IMG/VR virus record: IMGVR_UViG_3300046804_000384
Span: 1 to 25,812 of that record
Origin: a virus
Direction: 5' to 3' (one strand)
Length of the DNA stretch: 25,812 bases
The translations under genes were made by a program, and so were the position numbers. This document shows, piece by piece, positions 3,571 through 23,974 of this stretch. Numbering within the stretch: the stretch's first letter is position 1; each line of letters opens with the position of its first letter. The notes under the pieces are model-generated. The model was given only the letters and a program-made list of their open reading frames with translations. It was not told the origin of the DNA and did not search any database.

Positions 3571-3578
3571 TATTTATT
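3571..3578 (-). promoter_or_regulatory. Late promoter, AATAAATA, for the tail tube gene
   Basis: A minus-strand octamer ending 22 bases before ATG 3549, immediately downstream of and overlapping the stop codon of the sheath gene (GTA TAA TAAATA). Short spacing and strand agree with the other late sites in this window. Confidence 0.65.
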
Positions 3579-5664
3579 ATACTGAACCAACGATTGTAGA
3601 GAACTCAACGCCAGATCTTACAGCCACAAAGTTGAGCTGAATGAAGTTGATCGAGCGATTAGGCTTGATGTAGATATCTCCGACGAATTGATTTGAGTCT
3701 ACGATCTGATCAGTGTTATTAGTGCTATCGCAGACTACTCTGAAATCCGTAATACCTCTACGGCCCTGTACGTCTCTTAGATAAGGCTCGATTAGATTTA
3801 CAAACTGTGCGCGAGTAAATTCATCATTGAAATCAAACAGCGCAGACTTAGCCGCGTTAGAGATCGCTTTTTCAAGAACGATAAACAGACGACGTACGTT
3901 GATACGATCAAATGCCGAAGGACGTCCTAACAGAGTCTTATCTCCGTAGAGAACAGTTCCTTGACCTTGGAACGTTGATACTGGGTTTACGTCTGCCTTA
4001 TACAGAATATCGCGCTGGCCCTGATTTGGATTGAATGCCAATCTAGTTACGTTCTTGATCTGACCGCGCTGGAATCCAGCTGGTGAGAACCATGGATCAC
4101 GATCATTATCGGTGCGTACACAAGTACCGGCAACGTCTCCGTTCAGAGGAATCCAACGATATGTATCATTGTACTTGTCATACTGATACTTGTAACCACT
4201 GTCCATAACTGCATAAGAAGAAGCAGTAGTCAGATTATTACGGAAGTTTACGATATTCGTAGTAGCGTCACCGGCTGTAGTTTGTACGACAGCATCTGCT
4301 TTAGCAGGTGATATGAAAGCAACACAGTCCTTACGATACTCGGCAATATTTCCGATGATATAGTTTGCCATAGCTCCATAAGTCGTAGAAGTGCTAGATG
4401 GAGTTGTACTTTCTGCAGACAATCCGCGGGCTTTACCGGCAAGAACAAGAGAAATATCTACGTCTTCTTTGTTCTTGAACAGATCATATCCACCAGTTAC
4501 AGCTGATAGAGAGCAGTTTGACTCGCTGTTTCCGTCGCCGCCAAGAGCAAACGTAGCTGTGTATGGGTTGATATTTGTAGAAGACGCAATATTGTTTGCT
4601 GTATTTGAAACAGCACCACTACGATCTGTACCTGCCCAGATATAGTTAGAAGTATTATTCAGTACTGTCTTGTAGTAATTAGTAGCGCCCGAATCGGTCT
4701 TAGCATCTGTAGCACGTGATAGAGCTCTGAAGACTTCAAGAATCGTTCCTGGAGTACCAGTAATTTGGCCCAATTGGTCAACGACAACGACGTGCATTTC
4801 GTCATTTGCAGTATAACCCTTTTGAGCCATGTAGTTCGAACTACCCGGAGCCTTATCGACTTGTGAATAGAATTCCCAGTAGCTAGTAGTAGACGTCTGA
4901 GTTACGTTAGCTGGAAGAACGACTGGCGAAGCAAGGCTCAGAGTTGCATAAGACTGAATATTAGCACCAGAACCAGTTTCGACATTAGAAGGAGTTACGG
5001 CTGTGACCTTAACAGTCTGCGTACCAGTCGTCGTATTTCCTAAGTCGATCAGGTCGCCGACGGTAATCCAGCTTGTAGTTGCTTGAGCTGCAGCGTTAGC
5101 TTTACCGGCTTGGTTTGCGGTATAAGTGATTGTGGCTGAGTTCGAACCACTAGTAGAAGTGATGCTGATTGCAGATACGTTACCATAAGTATTTGAACTT
5201 GTGGTTTGAATGAATGCAGCATTGACTTGAAGGCTATATGCAGTAGAACTATCGCAGACAGAGATCTTCAGGCTGTTACCAAGCGAACCAGGATACTTAG
5301 CGATATATGCTACGTTAGCACTGATCGTAGTATTTGCATAGTCATCGGCGTTCTTGATAGCAAAGCCGGCTACAGTATTTGTATTGGCAACAGCATTGTT
5401 TGCTCCGTCAATGACGCGAACGACTTGCAGGCTATTGCCATATGCCAGGAAGTTAGCGGCCGTGAAGAATGTTTCGTAGTTATCGGCAGTTGGCTTACCA
5501 AAGACAGAAGCCAAAGTGCTTTCTGAATCGATCAGTCTTCTCTGATTGACTGGACCCCAAGTGAAAATTCCGGCAAACGCACCGGTAGTAGTAGATACGT
5601 TTGGCACTACTGTTGTAAGATCGATTTCACTTACATTGATACCAGGACTGACTTGAATTGCCAT
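3577..5664 (-). CDS. gp18: Contractile tail sheath protein, gp18-like
   Basis: A 695-residue sheath subunit (T4 gp18 is 659). The sheath surrounds the tail tube and contracts during DNA injection. The N-terminus (QVSPGINVSEIDLTTVVP, then TTTGAFAGIFTWGPVNQ) is typical of myovirus sheaths, as is the conserved C-terminal domain (RLFIVLEKAISNAAKSALFDFND, then LIEPYLRDVQGRRGITDFRVVCD and VGDIYIKPNRSINFIQLNF). The middle (about residues 110-400) is Ser/Thr/Asn-rich and poorly conserved, which suits the surface-exposed domains. A longer frame begins at ATG 5679, but the bases coding those extra five residues contain AAGGAGAT, an ideal ribosome-binding site for ATG 5664, so I chose 5664. A late promoter lies 47 bases upstream. 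Confidence 0.95.
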   Translation of the reverse strand: MAIQVSPGINVSEIDLTTVVPNVSTTTGAFAGIFTWGPVNQRRLIDSESTLASVFGKPTADNYETFFTAANFLAYGNSLQVVRVIDGANNAVANTNTVAGFAIKNADDYANTTISANVAYIAKYPGSLGNSLKISVCDSSTAYSLQVNAAFIQTTSSNTYGNVSAISITSTSGSNSATITYTANQAGKANAAAQATTSWITVGDLIDLGNTTTGTQTVKVTAVTPSNVETGSGANIQSYATLSLASPVVLPANVTQTSTTSYWEFYSQVDKAPGSSNYMAQKGYTANDEMHVVVVDQLGQITGTPGTILEVFRALSRATDAKTDSGATNYYKTVLNNTSNYIWAGTDRSGAVSNTANNIASSTNINPYTATFALGGDGNSESNCSLSAVTGGYDLFKNKEDVDISLVLAGKARGLSAESTTPSSTSTTYGAMANYIIGNIAEYRKDCVAFISPAKADAVVQTTAGDATTNIVNFRNNLTTASSYAVMDSGYKYQYDKYNDTYRWIPLNGDVAGTCVRTDNDRDPWFSPAGFQRGQIKNVTRLAFNPNQGQRDILYKADVNPVSTFQGQGTVLYGDKTLLGRPSAFDRINVRRLFIVLEKAISNAAKSALFDFNDEFTRAQFVNLIEPYLRDVQGRRGITDFRVVCDSTNNTDQIVDSNQFVGDIYIKPNRSINFIQLNFVAVRSGVEFSTIVGSV

Positions 5665-5710
5665 TTCTATCTCCTTCATTAAAGAAACGTGTAGATTCTA
5701 GTTACGCTTA

Positions 5711-13910: not shown

Positions 13911-14143
13911 TAAAACGCTCCTCCATCAAGGCTCAGCTGGTCTAAGTGAAAATTTTGATCATCTTCGTGATAAATTAAGACGCTATTATTTATAGGATTA
14001 TCCATATTAACATCTTGGAGCGTAGAAAGTCTAGATCCAATTGGAGGCATGATGTTCTTGATGTAGATCGGATTAGCTTCTTTGACGAACTTAGTCTTAG
14101 TGAAGTTAAGATCTTGCTTAAGTCTTACGTTGATTCCAGACAT
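13910..14143 (-). CDS. Small fibre-associated structural protein
   Basis: A 77-residue protein wedged between the 111-residue gene and the large fibre, joined to both by TAATG stop-start overlaps, so the three are almost certainly co-translated. The C-terminal half (TLQDVNMDNPINNSVLIYHE, then QNFHLDQLSLDGGAF) resembles the 'DV...P..G.VLVYD....F' units found at the ends of many phage fibre and collar proteins. The N-terminal half is basic (RLKQDLNFTKTKFVKEANPI). The last five residues LDGGAF echo LDGGTF at the end of the large fibre. It may be a connector or tip subunit; I do not recognise a named family. Coding is supported by the two precise overlaps and a late promoter upstream of the operon. 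Confidence 0.75.
   Translation of the reverse strand: MSGINVRLKQDLNFTKTKFVKEANPIYIKNIMPPIGSRLSTLQDVNMDNPINNSVLIYHEDDQNFHLDQLSLDGGAF
13987..13994 (-). promoter_or_regulatory. Possible internal late promoter, TATAAATA, for the large fibre
   Basis: An exact late octamer within the 77-residue gene, encoding part of a Pro-Ile-Asn-Asn stretch, 77 bases before ATG 13910. It could give extra transcription of the large fibre, but an AT-rich Ile-Asn codon pair makes it easily by chance. Confidence 0.45.
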
Positions 14144-14478
14144 TAGACTTTCGTAACCTCCGGAGTAACTGTGACTATTCCTTCGATAACACGAGTGATA
14201 GCATTAGCTGTATCTACAGTCTCGATATCATAGACATATCTACCCGATTCCATGTTAGCCGTGGTGTTAGCATCCAGAGCGACGTAGATATAACCAGTGT
14301 TCGGATTAGGAATAGTGACAGTAAAAGTCACGTACGAATTTGAAGTATACCACTTTCTGATTTGCCCGCGTGCATTGTAATCCGTAAGATCCAAAGCAGC
14401 TCCGGTGTCATCGGTCAAAGCCAAGTATGTTGAAAATGTAGTTCCCTGATCTACTACGATATTAGCTTTTGCTGCCAC
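14143..14478 (-). CDS. Small beta-rich virion protein, fibre-operon leader (GTG start)
   Basis: A 111-residue protein with the look of an immunoglobulin-like beta-sandwich: alternating hydrophobic strands (ANIVVDQGTTFSTYLALTD, then YVTFTVTIP, GYIYVALD, GRYVYDIETVD, ITRVIEGIVTVTPEV). The 'dqGttf...l...d..G..ldLtdy.a.mqir' start is common in small baseplate- or fibre-linked proteins of many phages. A bacterial-surface or virion attachment domain is likely, with no enzymatic motif. The start is GTG 14478, supported by GGGAG 7 bases upstream and a perfect late promoter 24 bases further. No alternative ATG lies near. It is the first gene of a three-gene unit with the 77-residue protein and the large fibre. 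Confidence 0.8.
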   Translation of the reverse strand: MAAKANIVVDQGTTFSTYLALTDDTGAALDLTDYNARGQIRKWYTSNSYVTFTVTIPNPNTGYIYVALDANTTANMESGRYVYDIETVDTANAITRVIEGIVTVTPEVTKV

Positions 14479-14502: not shown

Positions 14503-14510
14503 TATTTATA
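14503..14510 (-). promoter_or_regulatory. Late promoter, TATAAATA, for the fibre operon
   Basis: An exact T4 late octamer on the minus strand, ending 24 bases before GTG 14478, in the largest intergenic gap of the window (14479-14561). It lies back to back with a rightward sigma-70 promoter that begins 12 bases away. Confidence 0.85.
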
Positions 14511-14561: not shown

Positions 14562-15362
14562 TTATAGATGTAACTCAGTTTTGATCTTGGCCTTAAGGCT
14601 CTCTGGTACTTCTGCAGATTGCGCGAAGCGTGTCAAAACTTCAAGTACCTCTGAGTATTTCGTATCGGACTTATTGTCATGATAGCGACAGAAATCTACG
14701 CCGACATTCACGAAGCCTTCCATATCTTGTCGCTTGAAATACTCATTGGTCAGATACCAGCTATTCCAAGTATTCTGAGGATTAGCATCGTGCTCTTTGA
14801 TGAATAGATCTAGATATTGCTTATTTCTGGGTTTGGTGATGTCTTGATCGTGAATCAAGAATACCTCTGGATTATAGATCTCAGCTTCGGATCCTGGTCC
14901 GATATAAGACAGATGCTCATAGATCGGCATTCTCCACTCGTACATATGACGTCTGTGAATCTTATTGGTACCGATATGTTTAGGTCGACCAACAAAGACT
15001 TCAGGACTATAGATGTCGAGTCTTGCACATGAGACATTTGTTACGTTCGAATATTGAGCTTCGGTTCTAGCAATCTCTTCGAGCACATTGATAGAGAAAT
15101 ACTCGTCCATATCAGGAGAAAGACACCAGTCGACGTCCTGAGGCACCATCATAAGATTTACATTGCGTGCAGTATCAAATCTAAATTCATCTAGTATGAG
15201 CTGATTTAGAATGATATTTGGAACTTTTTGAAGCGCCTCAAATGTGCCATCAGTAGATCCGGTATCTAGAACGACTCTGTAGTCGAAGTCCTTAGTGTAG
15301 TAGAGCCATTGGTCTAGTTTCTTGATCTCATTTTTGCAGATTGTGTAAGCCGCAGTCTTCAT
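14562..15362 (-). CDS. Family 2 (GT-A) glycosyltransferase
   Basis: A 266-residue enzyme that would transfer a sugar from a nucleotide-sugar donor to an unknown acceptor in the cytoplasm. The GT-A signature is clear: a short N-terminal strand with TICKNE (7-12), nucleotide-binding DTGSTDGT (33-40), FRFDTARN (60-67) and the metal-binding DxD as DMDEY (84-88). His/Arg-rich NKIHRRHMYEWRMPIYEHL around 130-150 fits the catalytic and acceptor side. This short form resembles the 'SunS/WaaE-type' cytosolic enzymes. No membrane segment is seen. ATG 15362 has GGAG 8 bases upstream and lies 15 bases after the RCC1 gene stop, so it probably ends the operon that starts with the TPR gene. It is the last gene before the gap with the two promoters. 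The acceptor could be a fibre, a host glycan or another virion protein. Confidence 0.88.
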   Translation of the reverse strand: MKTAAYTICKNEIKKLDQWLYYTKDFDYRVVLDTGSTDGTFEALQKVPNIILNQLILDEFRFDTARNVNLMMVPQDVDWCLSPDMDEYFSINVLEEIARTEAQYSNVTNVSCARLDIYSPEVFVGRPKHIGTNKIHRRHMYEWRMPIYEHLSYIGPGSEAEIYNPEVFLIHDQDITKPRNKQYLDLFIKEHDANPQNTWNSWYLTNEYFKRQDMEGFVNVGVDFCRYHDNKSDTKYSEVLEVLTRFAQSAEVPESLKAKIKTELHL

Positions 15363-15377
15363 TATATAACTCCATTA

Positions 15378-16580
15378 TTAAAGTCCGTTTTTAATTGAGC
15401 CAATACTAGCAGTTCCAAATGAAATAGAATTCCAATTAGTATATGTACCGACCTGCACAGGAGAAGATACATTTGTTAGATTATTTTGACCCAATTGACC
15501 GCTTGAATTAGAACCCCAGACCCACAGAGTACCATCTGTTTTAATTGCGCCTGCAGAAAACCGTGAAAGGTGATCAGGCAGAGAGCTCCATGTAGTCAGT
15601 GCACCTACTTGAACTGGCGATGATCTATGAACAATATCATTTTGTCCTAATTGACCACTATTGTTATATCCCCAAGACCACAGAGTACCATCTGTTTTTA
15701 TGGCTAGTGTAGAACCAGAATAAGCGCCTTCACCACCACCGGTGACTTTACTCCAAGTAGTTAGAGCCCCGACTTGTACTGGAGATGATCTATGAACAAT
15801 ATCTCCTTGGCCTAGTTGTCCACTAGCATTACCACCCCAAGCCCATAGAGTGCCATCCGTTTTGATAGCTAATGAGAATGTTCTTCCTGTAGCTACAGAT
15901 GCCCATGTAGTCAGAGCACCTACTTGCACTGGAGAAGATCTGTGGGTAGTATCACCTAATCCTAATTGACCATTAATGTTATATCCCCAGGCCCATAGAG
16001 TGCCATCAGTCTTAATGGCTAACATATGGCCATCATCGCCGTTTACACTGCCGCCGCCAACCGATACTTTACTCCAAGTAGTACCAGCTCCTACTTGTAC
16101 AGGAGAAGATCTATGCGTAACATCATTTAATCCCAAACGACCGTAATTATTAGATCCCCAAGTCCAAAGAGTACCGTCTGTCTTAATAGCTGCTACTGCA
16201 TTTCCTCCGCAGTTAATGCTACTCCAATTTGTCAGTGTACCGACTTGCACTGGTGATGATCTGTGTGTTCGATCGCCTGTACCTAATTGACCAGTATTAT
16301 TTCTTCCCCAAGTCCAAAGCGAGCCATTACTCTTCACTCCTCCACCAAACCCATAAGCATTTAAACTTCCTTGATTTGGTGAAAACGATATTACTGTCCA
16401 GCCAGTTAAAATTCCTATTTGAATAGGAGAACTATAGCTAGTGGAAGTTCCATCTGGTATGATACTATCTGTATTATCACCCCAAGCCCAAAATGTTTTA
16501 TCATTATAGCTTATAAAGCTAGTGTTTGGAATATAATAGTTGTCGAAATCAACTCCATTAACTTGTAGATTACCAGCCAT
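15378..16580 (-). CDS. RCC1-type seven-bladed beta-propeller protein, copy 1
   Basis: A 400-residue protein built almost wholly of RCC1-like repeats. Seven units end in (R)SSPVQVG...W, each with the core [39 protein letters not shown] (shown here only as a pattern). A short strand pair at each end (FWAWGDN at 30-36 and [12 protein letters not shown] at the C-terminus) should close the ring, giving seven blades. The first ~25 residues ([18 protein letters not shown]) are unique and may be the virion anchor. RCC1 in eukaryotes is a Ran exchange factor, but here no such role is expected. Propellers in phages are plausible ligand-binding or fibre-tip domains. Blades differ mostly in the segment just before the AIKTDGT strand. 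The start overlaps the sulfotransferase gene by 11 bases, with GAGGA before ATG 16580. Confidence 0.85.
15432..16493 (-). repeat. RCC1-coding DNA repeats, copy 1
   Basis: Seven diverged units of about 150-170 bp that encode propeller blades. They share long near-identical stretches with the units in the other two RCC1 genes. Confidence 0.8.
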
Positions 16581-17373
16581 ACTGTCCTCTATATGATCTT
16601 TCTATATCTTTAAATTTTTCAAATAGATCATCGCCAAGAATGGTTTGTGGAGATTCAGAAATCTTCTTTAGAGTACTCCTGATAGTATGCATACCGTCAA
16701 GACCCCAAGCAGACAGATCATCATCGTTAGTATTATTTATAATGTTATTGAAGTCGTACTCATACTTAGTTAGTTTTAGGAAATCTTCTATAGATGATAA
16801 TGTACTCTTTGGGCTCTCCATTAGATCATCGTATTCTATGATTAGAATTCTATTTCCGGCGTCTTTTACGGCTTGACTGACAGACTCATAGCAGTCTCTA
16901 ACCATGTTATTCCACATTTCCATGGTTCTATTTTCATCTGTAATCTGAAGTCCATTAGAAATTATAGACTGGTCTATATGGTTGCCCGGATTTGACTTTA
17001 GAAGCTTCAGCCAACTCGCCATGATACTCGGAAGATCACGAACAGTCATTACTATCTTAATTTCTCTTTCAAATAGAATCACACTAGCCGGCATATTCTT
17101 ACCCCAGCCGCGATTCTTATCGATGATGATTGGTTCCGGTCTATGCTTCCACACGGCATCAATGAGTCTACGAGTGATGTTGGTAAGTTGCTCTCCGATT
17201 GGATTGGCTCTGACCTGTTGAGTTTCATGCCAGATTTTTTGATTAGAAATCAATATATCTAGCAGTGGAGATGTCGGTGTCGCGTAGACTTCTGGATGCT
17301 GATTGAGAATCGCCGTGAGTACTGTACTTCCACTTCTGGGAAGGCCAGACAGAAAATGAAATGTCTTTTCCAT
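16570..17373 (-). CDS. Sulfotransferase 2 (PAPS-dependent)
   Basis: A 267-residue sulfotransferase that would move sulfate from PAPS to a hydroxyl or amino group on a glycan, lipid or protein. The 5'-phosphosulfate loop is LPRSGST (11-17), directly after the first strand, and the 3'-phosphate-binding segment is [12 protein letters not shown] with Arg112 and Ser120. [13 protein letters not shown] (82-94) and LIIEYDDL (about 175-182) are typical of the bacterial Sulfotransfer family. It is clearly paralogous to the upstream enzyme over the full length, including TPTSPL and the C-terminal [18 protein letters not shown]. ATG 17373 overlaps the upstream stop as TAATG, with GGAG 6 bases before it. 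The end overlaps the RCC1 gene by 11 bases. All key residues are present; the acceptor is unknown. Confidence 0.9.
16734..16741 (-). promoter_or_regulatory. Weak candidate internal late promoter, TATAAATA
   Basis: An exact octamer inside the sulfotransferase coding sequence (Ile-Ile-Asn-Asn codons), 154 bases before the RCC1 gene. It may be a chance product of AT-rich codons. Confidence 0.25.
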
Positions 17374-18173
17374 TACGATCTCCAGAACTCCAGATTCATA
17401 TCATTATACTTATTATATAGCCTCTCACCAAGAATCTCTTTGGGATCACTAGACGTCTTTTCTAAGACAGTATTGATATCATGTAATTTCGCAAGGCCAT
17501 AGCTCTCTTCATCATTTTCTGGAGTAACATTGACTATATGTTCTAGATCATGGTCGTAATAAGGAAGTTCTAAAAAGTCGTATATTCCTCTTATTACTTC
17601 TTCTTTGTTAGAACATAGATCATCATATTCTACGATATGTAAGCACTCTCTATTATTTTCATAACCGGCTTTAAAGTTCAACCATGTTTTCTTTACATAG
17701 CTATTCCACATGGAGTCGACTCTGTTAGAATCATTCAACCAAGCTCCTTCTTTAAGAAGGGCTAAATCTATTCCACTAGTTCTCGCTGGCATGTTTCTGT
17801 TGAGTCTTAGAAAAGACGCAAATATAGAAGGAAGATCGCGAGTCGTAACTATGATCTTTGCTCGTCCAAATGCAAGTTTGATCTGTGGTATCTTAGACGC
17901 CCATACTCTATGCTTATCGATGATGATAGGCTTATCTATATGTTCCCAGCAACCATTGATGATTGCGTCAGACATATTCTTGAGTTGTTCAGGAAAAGGA
18001 TTGGCGATTACCGATGGTGTTTCATGCCAATCAGTATCGTTCTGTCTCAGAAGTGTTTCCAACGGAGAAGTCGGAGTGACGTATATCTCTGGGTTCTGAT
18101 TTAGAATAGAAGCTAACACAGTACTTCCACTTCTGGGAAGACCAGCTAGAAAAAAGAATTGTTTTTCAATCAT
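17373..18173 (-). CDS. Sulfotransferase 1 (PAPS-dependent)
   Basis: A 266-residue sulfotransferase, paralogue of the next gene. The phosphosulfate loop is LPRSGST (12-18), and the 3'-phosphate segment VTTRDLPSIFAS carries Arg112 and Ser120; IIIDKHRVWASKIP lies at 83-96 and LHIVEYDDL further on. A longer frame reaches 18254, but the extra 27 residues are basic, have no family counterpart, and overlap the TPR gene; ATG 18173 makes an ATGA overlap with that gene's stop and gives a length matching the neighbour (267). No clear ribosome-binding sequence is present, so translation is probably coupled. The two enzymes are divergent enough (for example LRQNDTDWHETPSV versus [13 protein letters not shown]) that different acceptors are likely. 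The product should be cytosolic; no signal peptide. Confidence 0.9.
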   Translation of the reverse strand: MIEKQFFFLAGLPRSGSTVLASILNQNPEIYVTPTSPLETLLRQNDTDWHETPSVIANPFPEQLKNMSDAIINGCWEHIDKPIIIDKHRVWASKIPQIKLAFGRAKIIVTTRDLPSIFASFLRLNRNMPARTSGIDLALLKEGAWLNDSNRVDSMWNSYVKKTWLNFKAGYENNRECLHIVEYDDLCSNKEEVIRGIYDFLELPYYDHDLEHIVNVTPENDEESYGLAKLHDINTVLEKTSSDPKEILGERLYNKYNDMNLEFWRS

Positions 18174-19492
18174 AGGACGTCTTTTAGTTGCTCCAGATGA
18201 GACCAGTCTCTCCACTTTCTTTGACGTAGAATAGTGCAGTTGTCTCCGTACCATTTAGAATCGCCGAGCCACGTATAGTATGTAGCGATCGGTGGACATA
18301 CCGTGATCGGAAATCCTGCGGCAGAACACACGTGTGATACTGAGGTACAACTACTTATGGTATAGTCCATGAGTGATAGACACGCCAGCAGGTCGTCTAG
18401 GTCTTCTAGATGCGGTGCGGCGTCGAATACCTTAGGATAATTCTCAATTCCTTCGTATCCATCTTTTTGTACCGAGACGAATGTAATATCATCTCTAGAG
18501 AAATCTAGTACTTCGTTGTATCGTTCTAGTGGCACTGTACGGTGTAGATCTTGATCGTAGTACATATTACCCGCCCATCGAATAGCGATCTTTCTACCGG
18601 ATGGAAGAAGCTTCTTCCACTTTTCAATATAGGCCGGGTCGGGCTTGAGATATGGTCCATTCCATAGTTCGTTCTTATCAAGATCCAGCGCGATTGGAAG
18701 ATACATGGACTTGATGCCCAGAGCGTCCGAGGGGACTTCTCTGATGCTAGAAACTGTGTTGAATCCATTCTTTCTGAATAGATCTGCGGTGTTCTTTCTT
18801 CCAGTAACGAATACTGGATACATACCGAGTTTCTTGATATTTTCCATGAAGCGAATATTGATGACTTCATCGCCGATTCCACCCTCAGCGATGATAGCGA
18901 CAGTCTTTCCGGGAATGACTTCTCCGTACCATTGAGTTAGAGGTAGATCGTACTTCTTCCAGATTCCAATTCTGTGACCGACATCGATGAAGTTGAGAAT
19001 GCCCTGCTTGAACTCTCCTTCATCGATGAGGTAAGACCCCAGATTGAATTCACAGCGTAGACGAATATCATCTGGAACCATAGGATCTTGAAGCAGATTC
19101 TTGATCTCTTGGTGTGATGTAGCAAAGTCTCCAGAAAGATAGTGCGAGAAGATCATTTCCATCTTAGCTTCGTAATCACGTGGATTGACAGCAAGATTCT
19201 GTTTAGAATACTGCATAGAGATCTCTGGATCATTCGTATGATTATACAGTTTTGCCAGATTAGATCTAGTGGCGTATCTTTGCCCTTCATTAGTCGATAG
19301 TTCTAAGGCTCTTTGAGCGCATTCAAGGGCGCTGTGGTAGTCTTTCATTTCATTGAAGTACATGCCGAGCTGATCAAACTGATCTATATTATTAGAGTAT
19401 CTTCTAAAGACTTTTAGAAGTTCTGAACCCGCTTTAAGTTCATCAGTATTTTTAAGAAACTCAATTACAAATCCAAGTGGATGCTGTTGCAT
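18170..19492 (-). CDS. TPR protein with C-terminal heptosyltransferase-like (GT9-type) domain
   Basis: A 440-residue two-part protein. Residues about 35-175 are tetratricopeptide-like helical repeats (QLGMYFNEMKDYHSALECAQRALEL, split around 42-66, then LAKLYNHTNDPEISMQYSKQNLAVNP). Residues about 195-440 have a GT-B fold pattern seen in GT9-like proteins: EGGIGDEVINIRFM (203-216) for the donor loop, IAIRWAGNMYYDQDLHRTVPLERY (302-325, pattern 'W.GN...D..R..p'), VSVQK (339-343), HLEDLDDLLACLSLMDYTISSCTSVSHVCSAAG (pattern 'D..D....L...D..i...t...H..gA.G'), and TWLGDSKWYGDNCTILRQRKWRDW. Similar TPR-GT9 fusions occur in bacteria, so this looks like a transferred gene. The ordinary His of the donor site is present at H387. 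It is the first gene of the enzyme block and overlaps sulfotransferase 1 by 4 bases. The acceptor is unknown. Confidence 0.8.
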   Translation of the reverse strand: MQQHPLGFVIEFLKNTDELKAGSELLKVFRRYSNNIDQFDQLGMYFNEMKDYHSALECAQRALELSTNEGQRYATRSNLAKLYNHTNDPEISMQYSKQNLAVNPRDYEAKMEMIFSHYLSGDFATSHQEIKNLLQDPMVPDDIRLRCEFNLGSYLIDEGEFKQGILNFIDVGHRIGIWKKYDLPLTQWYGEVIPGKTVAIIAEGGIGDEVINIRFMENIKKLGMYPVFVTGRKNTADLFRKNGFNTVSSIREVPSDALGIKSMYLPIALDLDKNELWNGPYLKPDPAYIEKWKKLLPSGRKIAIRWAGNMYYDQDLHRTVPLERYNEVLDFSRDDITFVSVQKDGYEGIENYPKVFDAAPHLEDLDDLLACLSLMDYTISSCTSVSHVCSAAGFPITVCPPIATYYTWLGDSKWYGDNCTILRQRKWRDWSHLEQLKDVL

Positions 19493-19511: not shown

Positions 19512-20762
19512 TTAACCTGTTAAGTCTTGTTTTATTATTCCTAATGAAAAACCACCGTAGCTGCCAGCACCACCAGAGATTACTGACCAATTATTCGAAG
19601 TACCAACTTGAACTGGAGATGATCTATGAACGATATTGTTTTGTCCTAATTGACCATAATTATTATATCCCCAAGACCATAGAGTACCATCAGTCTTGAC
19701 TGCTAAAGAATGATACTGCCCAGCAGATACTAATGACCAGGTAGTCAATGCACCTACTTGAACTGGAGATGATTTATTAGTTACAGTACCATCACCAAGT
19801 TGGCCAGAGGTACCTCTTCCCCATGACCAAAGAGTGCCGTCAGTCTTGACTGCCATAGTATGATACGCACCAGCAGATACTAGTGACCAATTAGTCAGTG
19901 CACCTACTTGAACTGGAGATGATCTATTAGTTACTGTTCCATCACCAAGTTGGCCATTATTATTTCTTCCCCATGACCATAGAGTACCATCGGTCTTAAT
20001 TGCTAAAGTGTGACTCTGGCCAGAAGATACTTTTGACCATGTAGTAAGAGCACCGACTTGAACTGGTGATGATCTATTAGTAGTATCATTTTGTCCTAAT
20101 TGACCATAGCCATTATATCCCCACGACCAGAGAGTTCCATCAGTCTTAATAGCGTGTGAAAATCCTCCATATGTTAAATATGAGTTATATCCACCTACGG
20201 CGACTGAAGACCATGTAGTCAGTAGACCGACTTGAACCGGAGATGATCTATTAGTTACAGTACCATCACCAAGTTGACCATAGGTATTTATTCCCCATGA
20301 CCATAGAGTGCCGTCAGTTTTAACTGCTAAATTAAAACTTCGGCCGGCTGATACGGACGACCAATTAGTCAGTGCACCTACTTGAACTGGAGATGATCTA
20401 CTGCTACCTCCGCCGAGTTCACCATAACTATTATTTCCCCATGTCCATAGAGTACCATCATTTTTAATACCAGCAGAATGTCCATAACGTCCCGCAGAAA
20501 CTAATTTCCACTGTGTAACGTTAAGTATTTGTTGTGGAGTGCTATAATATATTGTAATATAATCCGGATATCCAGTAGTTCCTGAAACGTTATTACCTAA
20601 TTCTCCGTAATAATCAAGGCCCCAACCGTACCCAACACCAAACACACCCCAGATGCTGTTGGCTCCAGACTTTCTATATGCAAGTGGAACATTTGCTTTA
20701 TCCGCTTGAGTGATTAGAATTTTATCTAGATCTGTACCGGTTCTAGTATAATTAGAGGTCAT
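19512..20762 (-). CDS. RCC1-type seven-bladed beta-propeller protein, copy 2
   Basis: A 416-residue RCC1-repeat protein with seven units ending at a Trp, each with (A)[11 protein letters not shown]...[18 protein letters not shown]. The N-terminus (TSNYTRTGTDLDKILITQ, 2-19) differs from the other copies and may be an anchor. The first blade is the most divergent (VGYGWGLDYYGELGNNVSG..STPQQI), as are the first blades of the other two proteins. Blades are strongly alike (SSVSAGRSFNLAVKTDGT versus SLVSAGAYHTMAVKTDGT), so this copy looks the youngest. The C-terminus ends in GGFSLGIIKQDLTG, which would pair with the N-terminal strand. It begins 3 bases after the DUF4376-like gene, with GAGGGG upstream of ATG 20762. 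No late promoter directly precedes it, though a CATAAATA within the upstream gene at 20831-20838 could serve. Confidence 0.85.
   Translation of the reverse strand: MTSNYTRTGTDLDKILITQADKANVPLAYRKSGANSIWGVFGVGYGWGLDYYGELGNNVSGTTGYPDYITIYYSTPQQILNVTQWKLVSAGRYGHSAGIKNDGTLWTWGNNSYGELGGGSSRSSPVQVGALTNWSSVSAGRSFNLAVKTDGTLWSWGINTYGQLGDGTVTNRSSPVQVGLLTTWSSVAVGGYNSYLTYGGFSHAIKTDGTLWSWGYNGYGQLGQNDTTNRSSPVQVGALTTWSKVSSGQSHTLAIKTDGTLWSWGRNNNGQLGDGTVTNRSSPVQVGALTNWSLVSAGAYHTMAVKTDGTLWSWGRGTSGQLGDGTVTNKSSPVQVGALTTWSLVSAGQYHSLAVKTDGTLWSWGYNNYGQLGQNNIVHRSSPVQVGTSNNWSVISGGAGSYGGFSLGIIKQDLTG
19587..20642 (-). repeat. RCC1-coding DNA repeats, copy 2
   Basis: Seven units coding propeller blades. The 20-base string at 19678-19697 also occurs, letter for letter, at 21589, 21739, 21898 and 22048 in copy 3, showing strong DNA-level similarity between the two genes. 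Confidence 0.8.
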
Positions 20763-20765
20763 GAT

Positions 20766-21410
20766 CTACCCCTCTAGTATTTCAGTCTTGAGCTCTTGAA
20801 TCTGACTTGCAGTAGTAGCAGCATCTATTTTATTTATGAATGATAATTCCCAATCAAAAGCAGCTTGAACGCTTTGATCGATATCATCGGCTATTGATTT
20901 TACATCTGATTTAGTCAGAGCAATCCAAGTTCCATTGCTGAACTTATAGTTCTTTGTATCAGAATCGCCCATTGTAGTTAGGATGTTGATCCAGATATTT
21001 CTTGGTTCACCGCGCTTCTTACTCACAGATACAGTCTGACCTTCTACGGTGACATCTATATCAGAGTTTTCTTTTTCATAGCGCTTAGCGGCTAATAGTG
21101 TCTTAAGCGTATTCTTAGCGATATCAAGATCTACGGGAGCGACGTCATACCATCCAATTACTGGATTTTCATTAGTATTCCAGAAAGGACCGGCGAGCTG
21201 TTGAGTAGGAGTGTCGAATTCTGGAATAATCGGATCTTCTACAGGAGCGATTCTAATGGTATCGTTGATGACGATAGGCTCTAGAGAGTCATATGATCCA
21301 GGAAGATCAAAAGCAATACCACGCGAGTTCAAGTAATCTTCAAAGAAGACTCTGATATAGTCACGTGGACCGACTTTCATATATCCGTTATCTATAAGTC
21401 CGTAATTCAT
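20766..21410 (-). CDS. DUF4376-like fibre-associated protein
   Basis: A 214-residue protein. The C-terminal ~110 residues fit the DUF4376 pattern seen in phage tail-fibre and tail-fibre-assembly proteins: LLAAKRYEKENSDIDVTVEGQTV (105-127), then WINILTTMGDSDTKNYKFSNGTWIALTKSDVKSIADDIDQSVQAAFDWE, and KIDAATTASQIQELK. The N-terminal part (MNYGLIDNGYMKVGPRDYIRVFFEDYLNSRG) is aromatic and may be an adaptor; its function is unknown to me. The family's role is usually guessed as fibre assembly or attachment, without a known enzyme activity. ATG 21410 has GGGAAG nearby and a late promoter 25 bases upstream. Its position between two RCC1 genes suggests it helps mount or fold a propeller. The family call rests on sequence pattern, the role on inference. 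Confidence 0.7.
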   Translation of the reverse strand: MNYGLIDNGYMKVGPRDYIRVFFEDYLNSRGIAFDLPGSYDSLEPIVINDTIRIAPVEDPIIPEFDTPTQQLAGPFWNTNENPVIGWYDVAPVDLDIAKNTLKTLLAAKRYEKENSDIDVTVEGQTVSVSKKRGEPRNIWINILTTMGDSDTKNYKFSNGTWIALTKSDVKSIADDIDQSVQAAFDWELSFINKIDAATTASQIQELKTEILEG

Positions 21411-21434: not shown

Positions 21435-21442
21435 TATTTATG
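21435..21442 (-). promoter_or_regulatory. Late promoter, CATAAATA, for the DUF4376-like gene
   Basis: A minus-strand octamer containing the TAA stop of the RCC1 copy 3 gene (final Pro codon CCA then TAA ATA), ending 25 bases before ATG 21410. Only the first base departs from TATAAATA. Confidence 0.6.
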
Positions 21443-22616
21443 GTACTACTTGATTCTGTAATGCAAATGAAGTATACGATCCAGAAGATACTAGTGACCA
21501 TATAGTCTGTGTACCGACTTGAACAGGAGATGATCTATTAGTAGTATCATTTTGTCCTAATTGACCATAATTGTTATATCCCCAAGACCATAGAGTACCA
21601 TCAGTCTTGACGGCTATAGTATGGTATGAACCCGCAGCAACTTTACTCCAAGTCGTCAATAGACCTATTTGAACTGGTGAAGATCTGTTGGTAGTATCAC
21701 CTAAACCAAGTTGACCATATATATTATATCCCCATGCCCATAGAGTACCATCAGTCTTAATAGCATATGCTGAGTATGCTCTATAAGTACCAGCAGATAC
21801 TAGTGACCAAGTAGTCAATGCACCGACTTGAACTGGAGAAGATCTATGCGTTATATCACCTAGACCAAGTTGACCAAATGCATTATATCCCCATGCCCAT
21901 AGAGTACCATCAGTCTTAATAGCATACATTGATGCGCCGGCGCTCGATATAGATGACCAATTAGTCTGTGTACCGACTTGAACGGGTGATGATCTATCAA
22001 TAATAGTACCACTACCTAATTGGCCATAATTATTATGTCCCCAAGTCCATAGAGTACCATCAGTCTTAATAGCTCCTACACTGCCACTAAACTGAGTTGT
22101 TCCTCCAGCAGAAATCTTTGACCACGTAGTCAGTGCACCGACTTGAACTGGTGATGATATATAGTACCCAACATATCCACTACCAGTACCTAATTGTCCA
22201 GCTTGTCCGCTACCACCAATAGCCCAGAGCGTGCCATCGGTTTTAATTCCCATGCTGAATCCGGGATTATCACCACCAATAGAAACAATCGCCCAATCAC
22301 GCAACGCGCCGACTTGAACCGGTGATGTCTTAGTAGCATTGTTATTTAAGCCTAATTCACCATAGGAATTATATCCCCATCCCCACAGTGTGCCGTCACG
22401 CTTGATGGCCATACTATGGAATGAGCCAGAAGAAGCGCTATCCCAAAATCCGTATCCGGCCGCTTGTATAGGTGAAGACCTATTAGTTGTAGTGCTGTCT
22501 CCGAGATTATTAGTTGCATTATATCCCCAATCCCAAAGGTTTGAATAATGAACATAATCATAACTGCAATAAGCAGTCTCTACAGCGGTATTATTGGTCT
22601 TAAAGTTAGTAGTCAT
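21438..22616 (-). CDS. RCC1-type seven-bladed beta-propeller protein, copy 3
   Basis: A 392-residue RCC1-repeat protein with seven Trp-ended units. The first unit is preceded by a unique N-terminus ([20 protein letters not shown]) with one Cys; the last blade is completed by [19 protein letters not shown]. Unit 3 is unusual: the WxWG core is changed to [19 protein letters not shown], so one blade has lost its second Trp, which should alter a propeller face. Units 4-7 are near the consensus. Whether it binds a receptor, sugar or partner protein cannot be told from the sequence. It starts 2 bases after the fibre gene stop, with GGAGAA 12 bases upstream. Its place beside an S74 fibre makes a tip or accessory of that fibre the leading idea. 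Confidence 0.85.
21498..22538 (-). repeat. RCC1-coding DNA repeats, copy 3
   Basis: Seven blade-coding units of about 150-170 bp. The same 20-base string recurs at 21589, 21739, 21898 and 22048, so spacing within this gene is near 150 bp. Confidence 0.8.
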
Positions 22617-22618
22617 GA

Positions 22619-23974
22619 CTAGTTATTCTCCAGTCTGTCCACCTTGGCCGATAGTTCTTTGACTGCTTGAATTAAGTACGCTATCAAACCAGAGTAGTTG
22701 ACACTCTTTGTTCCATCGGTATCTGTTACTAAGAATGGAATGATCTTCTCAAGATCTTGGGCGATGACACCAGAAGACTTATCTCCGGTATTCTTCCAAT
22801 TGAAAGTCACACCGTTGAGTTGATTGATTATCGCTGTCGCATCGGAGATGGTCTCTACATTGTCCTTAGCCGACGCGTCGGACAGAGAGTTGAAGATGGT
22901 AGAATTCAGAGTTCCAGTTGAAGGAACAAAGTAAAGCTGAGTATTAGAGACTACACCGTTAGACCAAGCGCCTGAGACGGTATTCGACATCGGAAAGTAG
23001 TAAGTCTGAGTGTCGGTATTATTGGCAGTAAGAGTGGCGCCACCTCCGGATGCCCAATATAATCCAGTACCATTAGAGAATAGAAGTTGGCCGTTTGCGC
23101 CGAGACTTCCGTTTGCATAGATGCCCTGCACCGCTAGAGCCGTAGAGTTTAGAACTCCAGAGACAGTAGAGTTACCGATGCTGATTGAGATCGCATTGAC
23201 TACTGCATTGACCGTAGAGTTTCCGGCTCTGATATCTCTAGAAGATAGAATATCGCGTACTGTCAGATCGCCAGAAGTAAGAGTCAGAGATCCATTGATC
23301 GACCCAGAAGTGTTTGCACTTACTGGAGTATAGTTTAGACCGACTGAAGAGTTACCCGTGATATCCGCCGCAGTAAGAGTCACCGCGCCGGATCTGGTAT
23401 TGAATGATGTAACGCCAGACGCTGGAGTAGAGATGGTCTGTGCGGTAACAGCTGTGACTCTACCCTTAGCGTCTACGGTAATAACCGGATATGTCGTAGT
23501 ATTACCGTATGTGTTGGCCGTGACACCAGAATTGGCAAGAGTGACTGCAATGGTAAGATTAGCGGTTCCATCGAAATTGCCATTGCCGGTTGCGTCGGTA
23601 GTAAGAGCGATATTGCGGGCTGTAGTAAGTGCATTCGCTGAGTTGGCAATACCAGAGAAAGACGTAGCGTTGATCGTGGTATTGACTGAGGTATTTCCGA
23701 ACGTGAGCGAATAGCCATTTGCGATGGCCACATTAGAAGCGATAGTCAGAGTTTCGTTGGTGCTTACATTACCACCACGAATAGTGTTAAAAGCTCCAGT
23801 CGTACCAGATAATGTACCAGAAATAAATGCGTTTCCGGTAGTAACACCACCAGAAGAATTAGAAGCTACCGTTACGACGATAGTTGACATATCGTCTAAA
23901 AGATTATTGGTTTTAGTCAACCAAGAAGCAAATGTATCGAATCCCGGTTGTACATTAGAGTACTGTTTAGACAT
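22619..23974 (-). CDS. Tail fibre protein with C-terminal S74 intramolecular chaperone
   Basis: A 451-residue fibre. The N-terminus ([30 protein letters not shown], split here for length as [18 protein letters not shown] at 12-29) is typical of marine T4-like fibre attachment domains. The shaft repeats [10 protein letters not shown]-like and [14 protein letters not shown]-like units and a [13 protein letters not shown] segment, also a common fibre repeat. The last ~90 residues are an S74 chaperone: [11 protein letters not shown] with Ser365 and Lys370 as the predicted self-cleavage dyad, then [26 protein letters not shown] and [24 protein letters not shown]. The fibre would trimerise and then cut before Ser365. 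It is followed by RCC1 copy 3 after 2 bases. AGGAAATAGAAG lies upstream of ATG 23974, and a late promoter ends 30 bases before it. The residues before the chaperone are paralogous to the other S74 fibre. Confidence 0.88.

Follow-up and report, generated by a model that had tools for sequence, protein, structure and literature searches.

The window, i.e., the whole stretch of DNA analysed, is a virus record of 25,812 bases from a T4-like myophage, the minus strand of which encodes portal, tube, sheath, terminase and neck proteins, tail fibres with S74 chaperones and three RCC1-repeat proteins. The portal protein has 57% identity with its counterpart in Stenotrophomonas phage DLP_6 and about 54% with those of cyanophages and Methylophilales phages; for the terminase, the figure is 57% with Pelagibacter phage Mosig. 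In the direction of transcription, the minus strand successively carries a tail fibre with an endosialidase-type chaperone (Peptidase_S74; 22619-23974; PF13884, 2e-13; fibre/baseplate PHROGs), an RCC1-repeat protein (21438-22616; PF00415, 5.8e-68), a DUF4376 tail-fibre-like protein (20766-21410; PF14301, 3e-7; phrog_10508, tail fiber, 5e-10), a second RCC1-repeat protein (19512-20762; PF00415, 3.8e-77), a TPR protein with a C-terminal putative glycosyltransferase, hereafter TPR-GT (18170-19492), two sulfotransferases (ST), namely ST-B of 266 aa (17373-18173) and ST-A of 267 aa (16570-17373), a third RCC1-repeat protein (15378-16580; PF00415, 8e-62), a GT2-type glycosyltransferase (14562-15362; PF13704, 8e-7; phrog_13126, 2e-38) and a relative of the L-shaped tail-fibre assembly protein (14143-14478; phrog_3304, 7e-27). 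From TPR-GT through ST-B and ST-A to the third RCC1 gene, the genes form a translationally coupled run set among tail-fibre genes, with junctions consisting of ATGA, TAATG and an overlap of 11 bases, respectively. An alternative longer start of ST-B at 18254 is possible but overlaps the upstream gene by 85 bases, whereas the ATG at 18173 forms ATGA with the upstream stop. Of note, a T4-type late promoter word, TATAAATA, lies at 14503-14510 on the minus strand, 25 bases ahead of the start of the fibre-assembly gene (14478); with four occurrences in the window against 1.84 expected, a count reached in 16 of 100 shuffles, this word is not above chance.

Both STs are Sulfotransfer_3 proteins scoring far above the Pfam cut-off (PF13469, 57.9 and 72.1 bits for the ST-A/ST-B pair against 27) and both match phrog_27463, which bears out an earlier reading, made from the sequence only, of two full-length enzymes side by side at 16570-18173. 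Sulfotransferases bind PAPS through two motifs, the 5'-PSB and the 3'-PB, whose roles are described in PMC6637879. As that reading also had it, each protein exhibits LPRSGST, here within GLPRSGST (18120-18143 in ST-B, 17323-17346 in ST-A), together with an Arg/Ser 3'-phosphate segment, with Arg112 and Ser120 in both (17814-17840 in ST-B, 17014-17040 in ST-A). Across the family, every one of the 68 aligned members has the same nine residues, namely R13, G15, S16, D85, R88, W90, R112, S120 and H229 (ST-A numbering). The further claim that all expected residues are kept thus stands for the PAPS motifs but not for the catalytic residue: according to PMC6637879, the catalytic residue of canonical sulfotransferases is a His or Glu located between these motifs, whereas no column in this interval has His or Glu in at least 54 of the 68 members. 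The invariant acidic residue there is Asp85, and His229 lies past the 3'-PB; since a conserved His/Glu is missing between the motifs, either of these two residues is proposed as a candidate catalytic base. The missing residue lowers the claim to a canonical mechanism and leaves membership of the Sulfotransfer_3 family unaffected. It would also accord with one or both enzymes being catalytically dead or redundant, as would the greater divergence of ST-B members relative to ST-A members. Such a loss is nonetheless highly improbable, as none of the 68 members, among them both window genes, departs from the PAPS motifs or the other invariant residues, and ST-B has been kept beside ST-A in four lineages. 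Purifying selection is apparent in the ST-A pair compared (L033/L034), with a dN of 0.017 and a dS of 0.401. Altogether, both ST-A and ST-B are very probably PAPS-dependent sulfotransferases.

The predicted fold of ST-A, the member of the pair that was modelled, is that of a sulfotransferase over its full length. The AlphaFold2 model (pLDDT 95.6) retrieved by structure search 50 listed VIA matches, all sulfotransferases by title (Z 12.3-19.1), with a top Z of 19.1 across 237 residues. The best seven VIA rows are tyrosylprotein-type enzymes TPST1/2 (Z 18.6-19.1), followed among the matches listed by CurM (16.5), an olefin-synthase sulfotransferase (16.3) and heparan enzymes (about 14-15); the best PDB sequence matches are TPST as well (1e-5). 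Human and tick TPST are thus closest in fold to the ST-A model, and both PAPS motifs are common to TPST and the phage STs. In TPST, the stretch GEETR contains the catalytic Glu. It is aligned with TPTSP in ST-A and likewise with TPTSP in ST-B, so the catalytic Glu of TPST has no counterpart in either. This bears on whether the STs could be protein-tyrosine sulfotransferases acting directly on tyrosines of RCC1 or other fibre proteins, in the manner of TPST or RaxST, which the proximity to TPST in structure (18.6-19.1 against 16.5 for the next group) and sequence would support, along with recurrent tyrosines in the RCC1 repeats. Against it, a conserved Glu/His is wanting between the motifs, no acidic tyrosine target was seen for the phage STs, and the RCC1 tyrosines are flanked by Asn and Gly whereas TPST sites are described as acidic (PMC6272617); direct tyrosine sulfation is consequently regarded as unlikely. 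RaxST of Xanthomonas is reported as a bacterial protein-tyrosine sulfotransferase (PMC6637879); the structural comparison concerns TPST. The sole NCBIfam match of both STs is NoeE, the Nod-factor sulfotransferase, with 24.8 and 21.8 bits against a cut-off of 500 and only the N-terminal PAPS motif aligned, which places neither protein within NoeE. NoeE works with the fucosyltransferase NodZ, and a NodZ-like fucosyltransferase is reported in the cultured cyanophage S-SRM01 (PMC8557907).

The sequence-only reading had asked whether the two genes duplicated in the phage or came from two sources, and phylogenetic analysis was run on this point, with a broad tree of 99 representatives drawn from 144 domains at 133 loci and a careful one of 34 sequences; most viral loci come from the best 80 of at least 536 encoding stretches. 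In both trees, ST-A and ST-B fall within one all-viral clade, where A and B group together with support of 97/98 (15 rows) and the ST-A group with 100/100. A tree including STs found independently via the TPR-GT gene agrees (19 rows for A; 23 rows for A and B, support 96). A tree that makes the two window genes sisters, as after a recent duplication in the window phage, is rejected (AU p 2e-6), and two independent acquisitions are not favoured because A and B share one all-viral clade. B forms a clade of its own in 30% of bootstraps (AU p 0.386) and is either one clade or the stem giving rise to A. It is present in four contig lineages (the window, L003/L004, L026/L027 and L028), each time immediately upstream of A. 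Judging from the sampled rows, the pair is an old duplication within the viral clade. ST-A and ST-B are now 43% identical, and of the different acceptor regions previously claimed the divergence itself holds (57%); it is distributed along the whole sequence, and a distinct acceptor domain was not seen. Two intact PAPS-binding enzymes kept distinct since an old duplication would fit two acceptor sites.

Regarding occurrence, the notion that phages seldom carry even one sulfotransferase holds for isolates (10 of 50,697 phage records) but not for uncultivated viruses, with at least 536 encoding stretches in IMG/VR. The same family as ST-A/ST-B comprises the phrog_27463/Sulfotransfer_3 proteins of Synechococcus phages S-SRM01, S-SKS1 and S-SCSM1 and of marine single-cell viruses, with 24-36% identity to the window ST-B; the record of S-SRM01 has one ST match where the window has a pair. 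Genes of psbA type are present in the three isolates tested (3/3) and in none of 12 IMG/VR contigs searched.

Immediately upstream of the pair, the TPR part of TPR-GT is recognised by Pfam, while its putative glycosyltransferase part is assigned from motifs and a modest hhalign match (58% probability to a GT9-like phage protein, against 0.2% for an unrelated control). This part has no match to a Pfam glycosyltransferase family and no strong PDB match, the best (E 0.025) being an entry titled N-acetyl glucosaminyl transferase. Apart from gaps at contig ends, related contigs keep the order fibre, RCC1, DUF4376, RCC1, TPR-GT, variable cargo, ST and neck genes. In S-SRM01, the island reads fibre, RCC1, DUF4376, RCC1, TPR-GT, cargo, RCC1 and ST, and in AG-345-E08, RCC1, RCC1, TPR-GT, RCC1 and ST. 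When loci are chosen by TPR-GT instead of ST (best 80 of 158 relatives, 54 after de-duplication at 90% with no further correction for kinship), RCC1 lies within the flanks in 48 of 54 and an ST in 38 of 54. TPR-GT itself occurs in 4 of 50,697 phage records, corresponding to three distinct phages, all with RCC1 and two with ST; the third, BUCT-ZZ01, has RCC1 and TPR-GT but no ST within the 18.8 kb read. Among 88 ST loci, which were not de-duplicated and include isolates, RCC1 is found in 34 and a separate TPR-GT in 31. Since no RCC1 homologue is found in the other 54, the ST family also works elsewhere. A literature search at title level, with most subscription papers beyond reach, found no description of an RCC1/TPR-GT/ST phage island.

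Four ST loci have RCC1 without a separate TPR-GT, and in three of them (L054, L057 and L097, as opposed to L087) the two enzymes are fused. Such fusions are ORFs of 585-597 aa with an N-terminal ST domain and a C-terminal TPR-GT; they are found in L054 (identical to L057), L097, L154, L155, L185 and L207. The six proteins are distinct from one another (42-82% identity), and each of their contigs also carries RCC1 genes. No other observation argues as strongly for ST and TPR-GT working on one product. Because ST is fused to TPR-GT in six lineages, it is tied to TPR-GT better than to host metabolism. More telling than rarity are the old duplication and this fusion with a fibre-linked TPR-GT.

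The cargo of related islands is of glycan type, with GT2, GT25, an FkbM methyltransferase, an epimerase, an HldE-like protein and a carbamoyltransferase. In two of them (L007:8375-10717 and L031:11174-13546, minus strand), an epimerase/cupin/HldE-like kinase-adenylyltransferase trio, encoded on the other strand, occupies the interval from ST to the neck genes and could represent a supply of nucleotide-heptose type feeding glycosyltransferases. A carbamoyltransferase is close to an ST pair in the same island (L026:12561-14252), and two TPR-GT homologues (L033:911-2632 and L231:8281-9993) have a C-terminal stretch weakly matching Methyltransf_11, possibly another fused decoration enzyme. Several ST lineages are found in the island, as if sulfation were selected there; in L270 and L275, a second ST comes from a lineage other than A/B, as if this slot of the island had taken up STs more than once.

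Two further readings bear on this context. The STs and glycosyltransferases may instead remodel the host surface polysaccharide (capsule or LPS) during infection, e.g., against re-adsorption of progeny or superinfection, and the GT25, FkbM, epimerase and HldE-like cargo is indeed typical of O-antigen/LPS decoration. This option, which together with direct tyrosine sulfation is the main rival, appears rather doubtful, since the STs share a coupled run with fibre genes and, in relatives, form one protein with the RCC1-linked TPR-GT, an enzyme which beside an adhesin-like gene would look more like one for protein glycosylation. Activity on a small molecule or nucleotide, in host sulfur metabolism or DNA modification, is quite improbable: nucleotide or protein modification is suggested for phage sulfotransferases in PMC10829341 and the ST of S-SCSM1 sits among replication and late genes, whereas the STs of the window lineage belong to the fibre island and are not grouped with nucleotide genes.

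As for the supply of PAPS, which the sequence-only reading expected from the host, 31 of the 88 ST loci (not de-duplicated) have an APS-kinase-like gene at 0-3 kb on the downstream side of ST. Examples matching phrog_10255 just downstream of STs are L031:10783-11205, L032:6658-7089, L003:8811-9695 and L026:14252-14659. The three proteins scored reach 29.8-43 bits with PF01583 (cut-off 21.1) and stay under the NCBIfam APS-kinase cut-offs; the top profile matches are APS kinases (2yvu, 2e-11), and the best 30 VIA rows for a model are APS kinases or enzymes with an APS-kinase domain. In the TPR-GT set (54 loci from the best 80 of 158 relatives), the kinase gene is present at 20 loci, all 20 with ST, against ST at 18 of the 34 loci without kinase (Fisher p 1e-4); the contrast loses significance among the 26 loci with full flanks (p 0.14), so incomplete contigs may drive it. 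Starting from the kinase, ST lies within 6 kb at 19 of 80 loci, and 18 longer kinase contigs have an ST above cut-off elsewhere in two cases and weak ST matches in five more. The gene has no profile match in the 25.8 kb window, PF01583 has none in L010, a near relative with a contig of 99 kb, and the kinase is absent from S-SRM01, S-SKS1 and S-SCSM1. As shown by alignment, many of these genes are fused to a C-terminal HxGH nucleotidyltransferase domain. A PAPS synthetase, combining APS kinase and ATP sulfurylase, was considered for this fusion and not upheld: the ATP sulfurylase family PF01747 is matched in 0 of 15 records, the NCBIfam matches of the HxGH half in L003 are mostly nicotinamide-nucleotide adenylyltransferases, and the model of this half is poor (pLDDT below 50 in 246-277). 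In phage Bhz60, the kinase/HxGH gene adjoins a NADAR gene, which favours a role of NAD type. PAP phosphatase (PF00459) is likewise matched in 0 of 15 records. The APS-kinase-like gene as PAPS supply is thus a lead.

The context of STs, fibre genes and a putative glycosyltransferase suggests a virus that may put sulfated sugars on its own fibres. The observations are intact genes, complete PAPS motifs, the predicted ST-A fold, the coupled gene order, the old duplication, the conserved linkage and the TPR-GT fusion in relatives, and it is from these that we infer the activity of the STs, the glycan, its RCC1 acceptor, a division of labour and a benefit. ST-A and ST-B would be the PAPS-dependent sulfotransferases of a virion-decoration module, where TPR-GT, aided by neighbouring glycosyltransferases, would put a glycan on RCC1-repeat fibre proteins late in infection; the two STs would then each add sulfate at a position of its own on the glycan, or at a different class of site, and the negative charge of the sulfate could tune attachment or shield the fibres. 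The reading tentatively preferred here, at somewhat less than an even chance, is that the STs sulfate a glycan borne by RCC1 fibre proteins of the phage itself. It is weakened by the 54 of 88 ST loci with no RCC1 homologue, by BUCT-ZZ01 with RCC1 and TPR-GT but no ST in the 18.8 kb read, by the want of a Pfam or strong PDB match for the glycosyltransferase part of TPR-GT and by a closest fold among protein-tyrosine sulfotransferases. More speculatively, these genes may form a phage sulfoglycoprotein system in which a dedicated TPR glycosyltransferase builds the glycan on RCC1-propeller fibres, one or two phage STs sulfate it and, in some relatives, a phage APS-kinase-like enzyme raises PAPS, the virion thereby presenting sulfated sugars to its host. 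A prokaryotic virus with a receptor-binding protein bearing a sulfated glycan is reported in HRPV-1, whose spike protein VP4 carries sulfated glucuronic acid in its N-glycan (PMC6137143). HRPV-1 differs in being an archaeal virus with a legionaminic acid pathway thought to be host-encoded, whereas the STs here are phage genes.

According to PMC10580990, it is unclear what phage sulfotransferases do, and PMC12285232 lists them as auxiliary metabolic genes. The TPR-GT fusion and the tight linkage to RCC1 fibre genes turn the latter label into a testable claim, i.e., sulfated virion glycoproteins, for which mass spectrometry offers a direct test since the cultured S-SRM01, whose host is Synechococcus sp. 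KCZYC6, has the same island. Should this prove true, sulfation would have to be counted among the chemical modifications with which phages alter their own adsorption apparatus. Elsewhere on the virion, the tail sheath protein of the window (3577-5679) is 700 aa long and its phrog_23 match covers positions 18-474 only, suggesting an insertion of about 200 residues.
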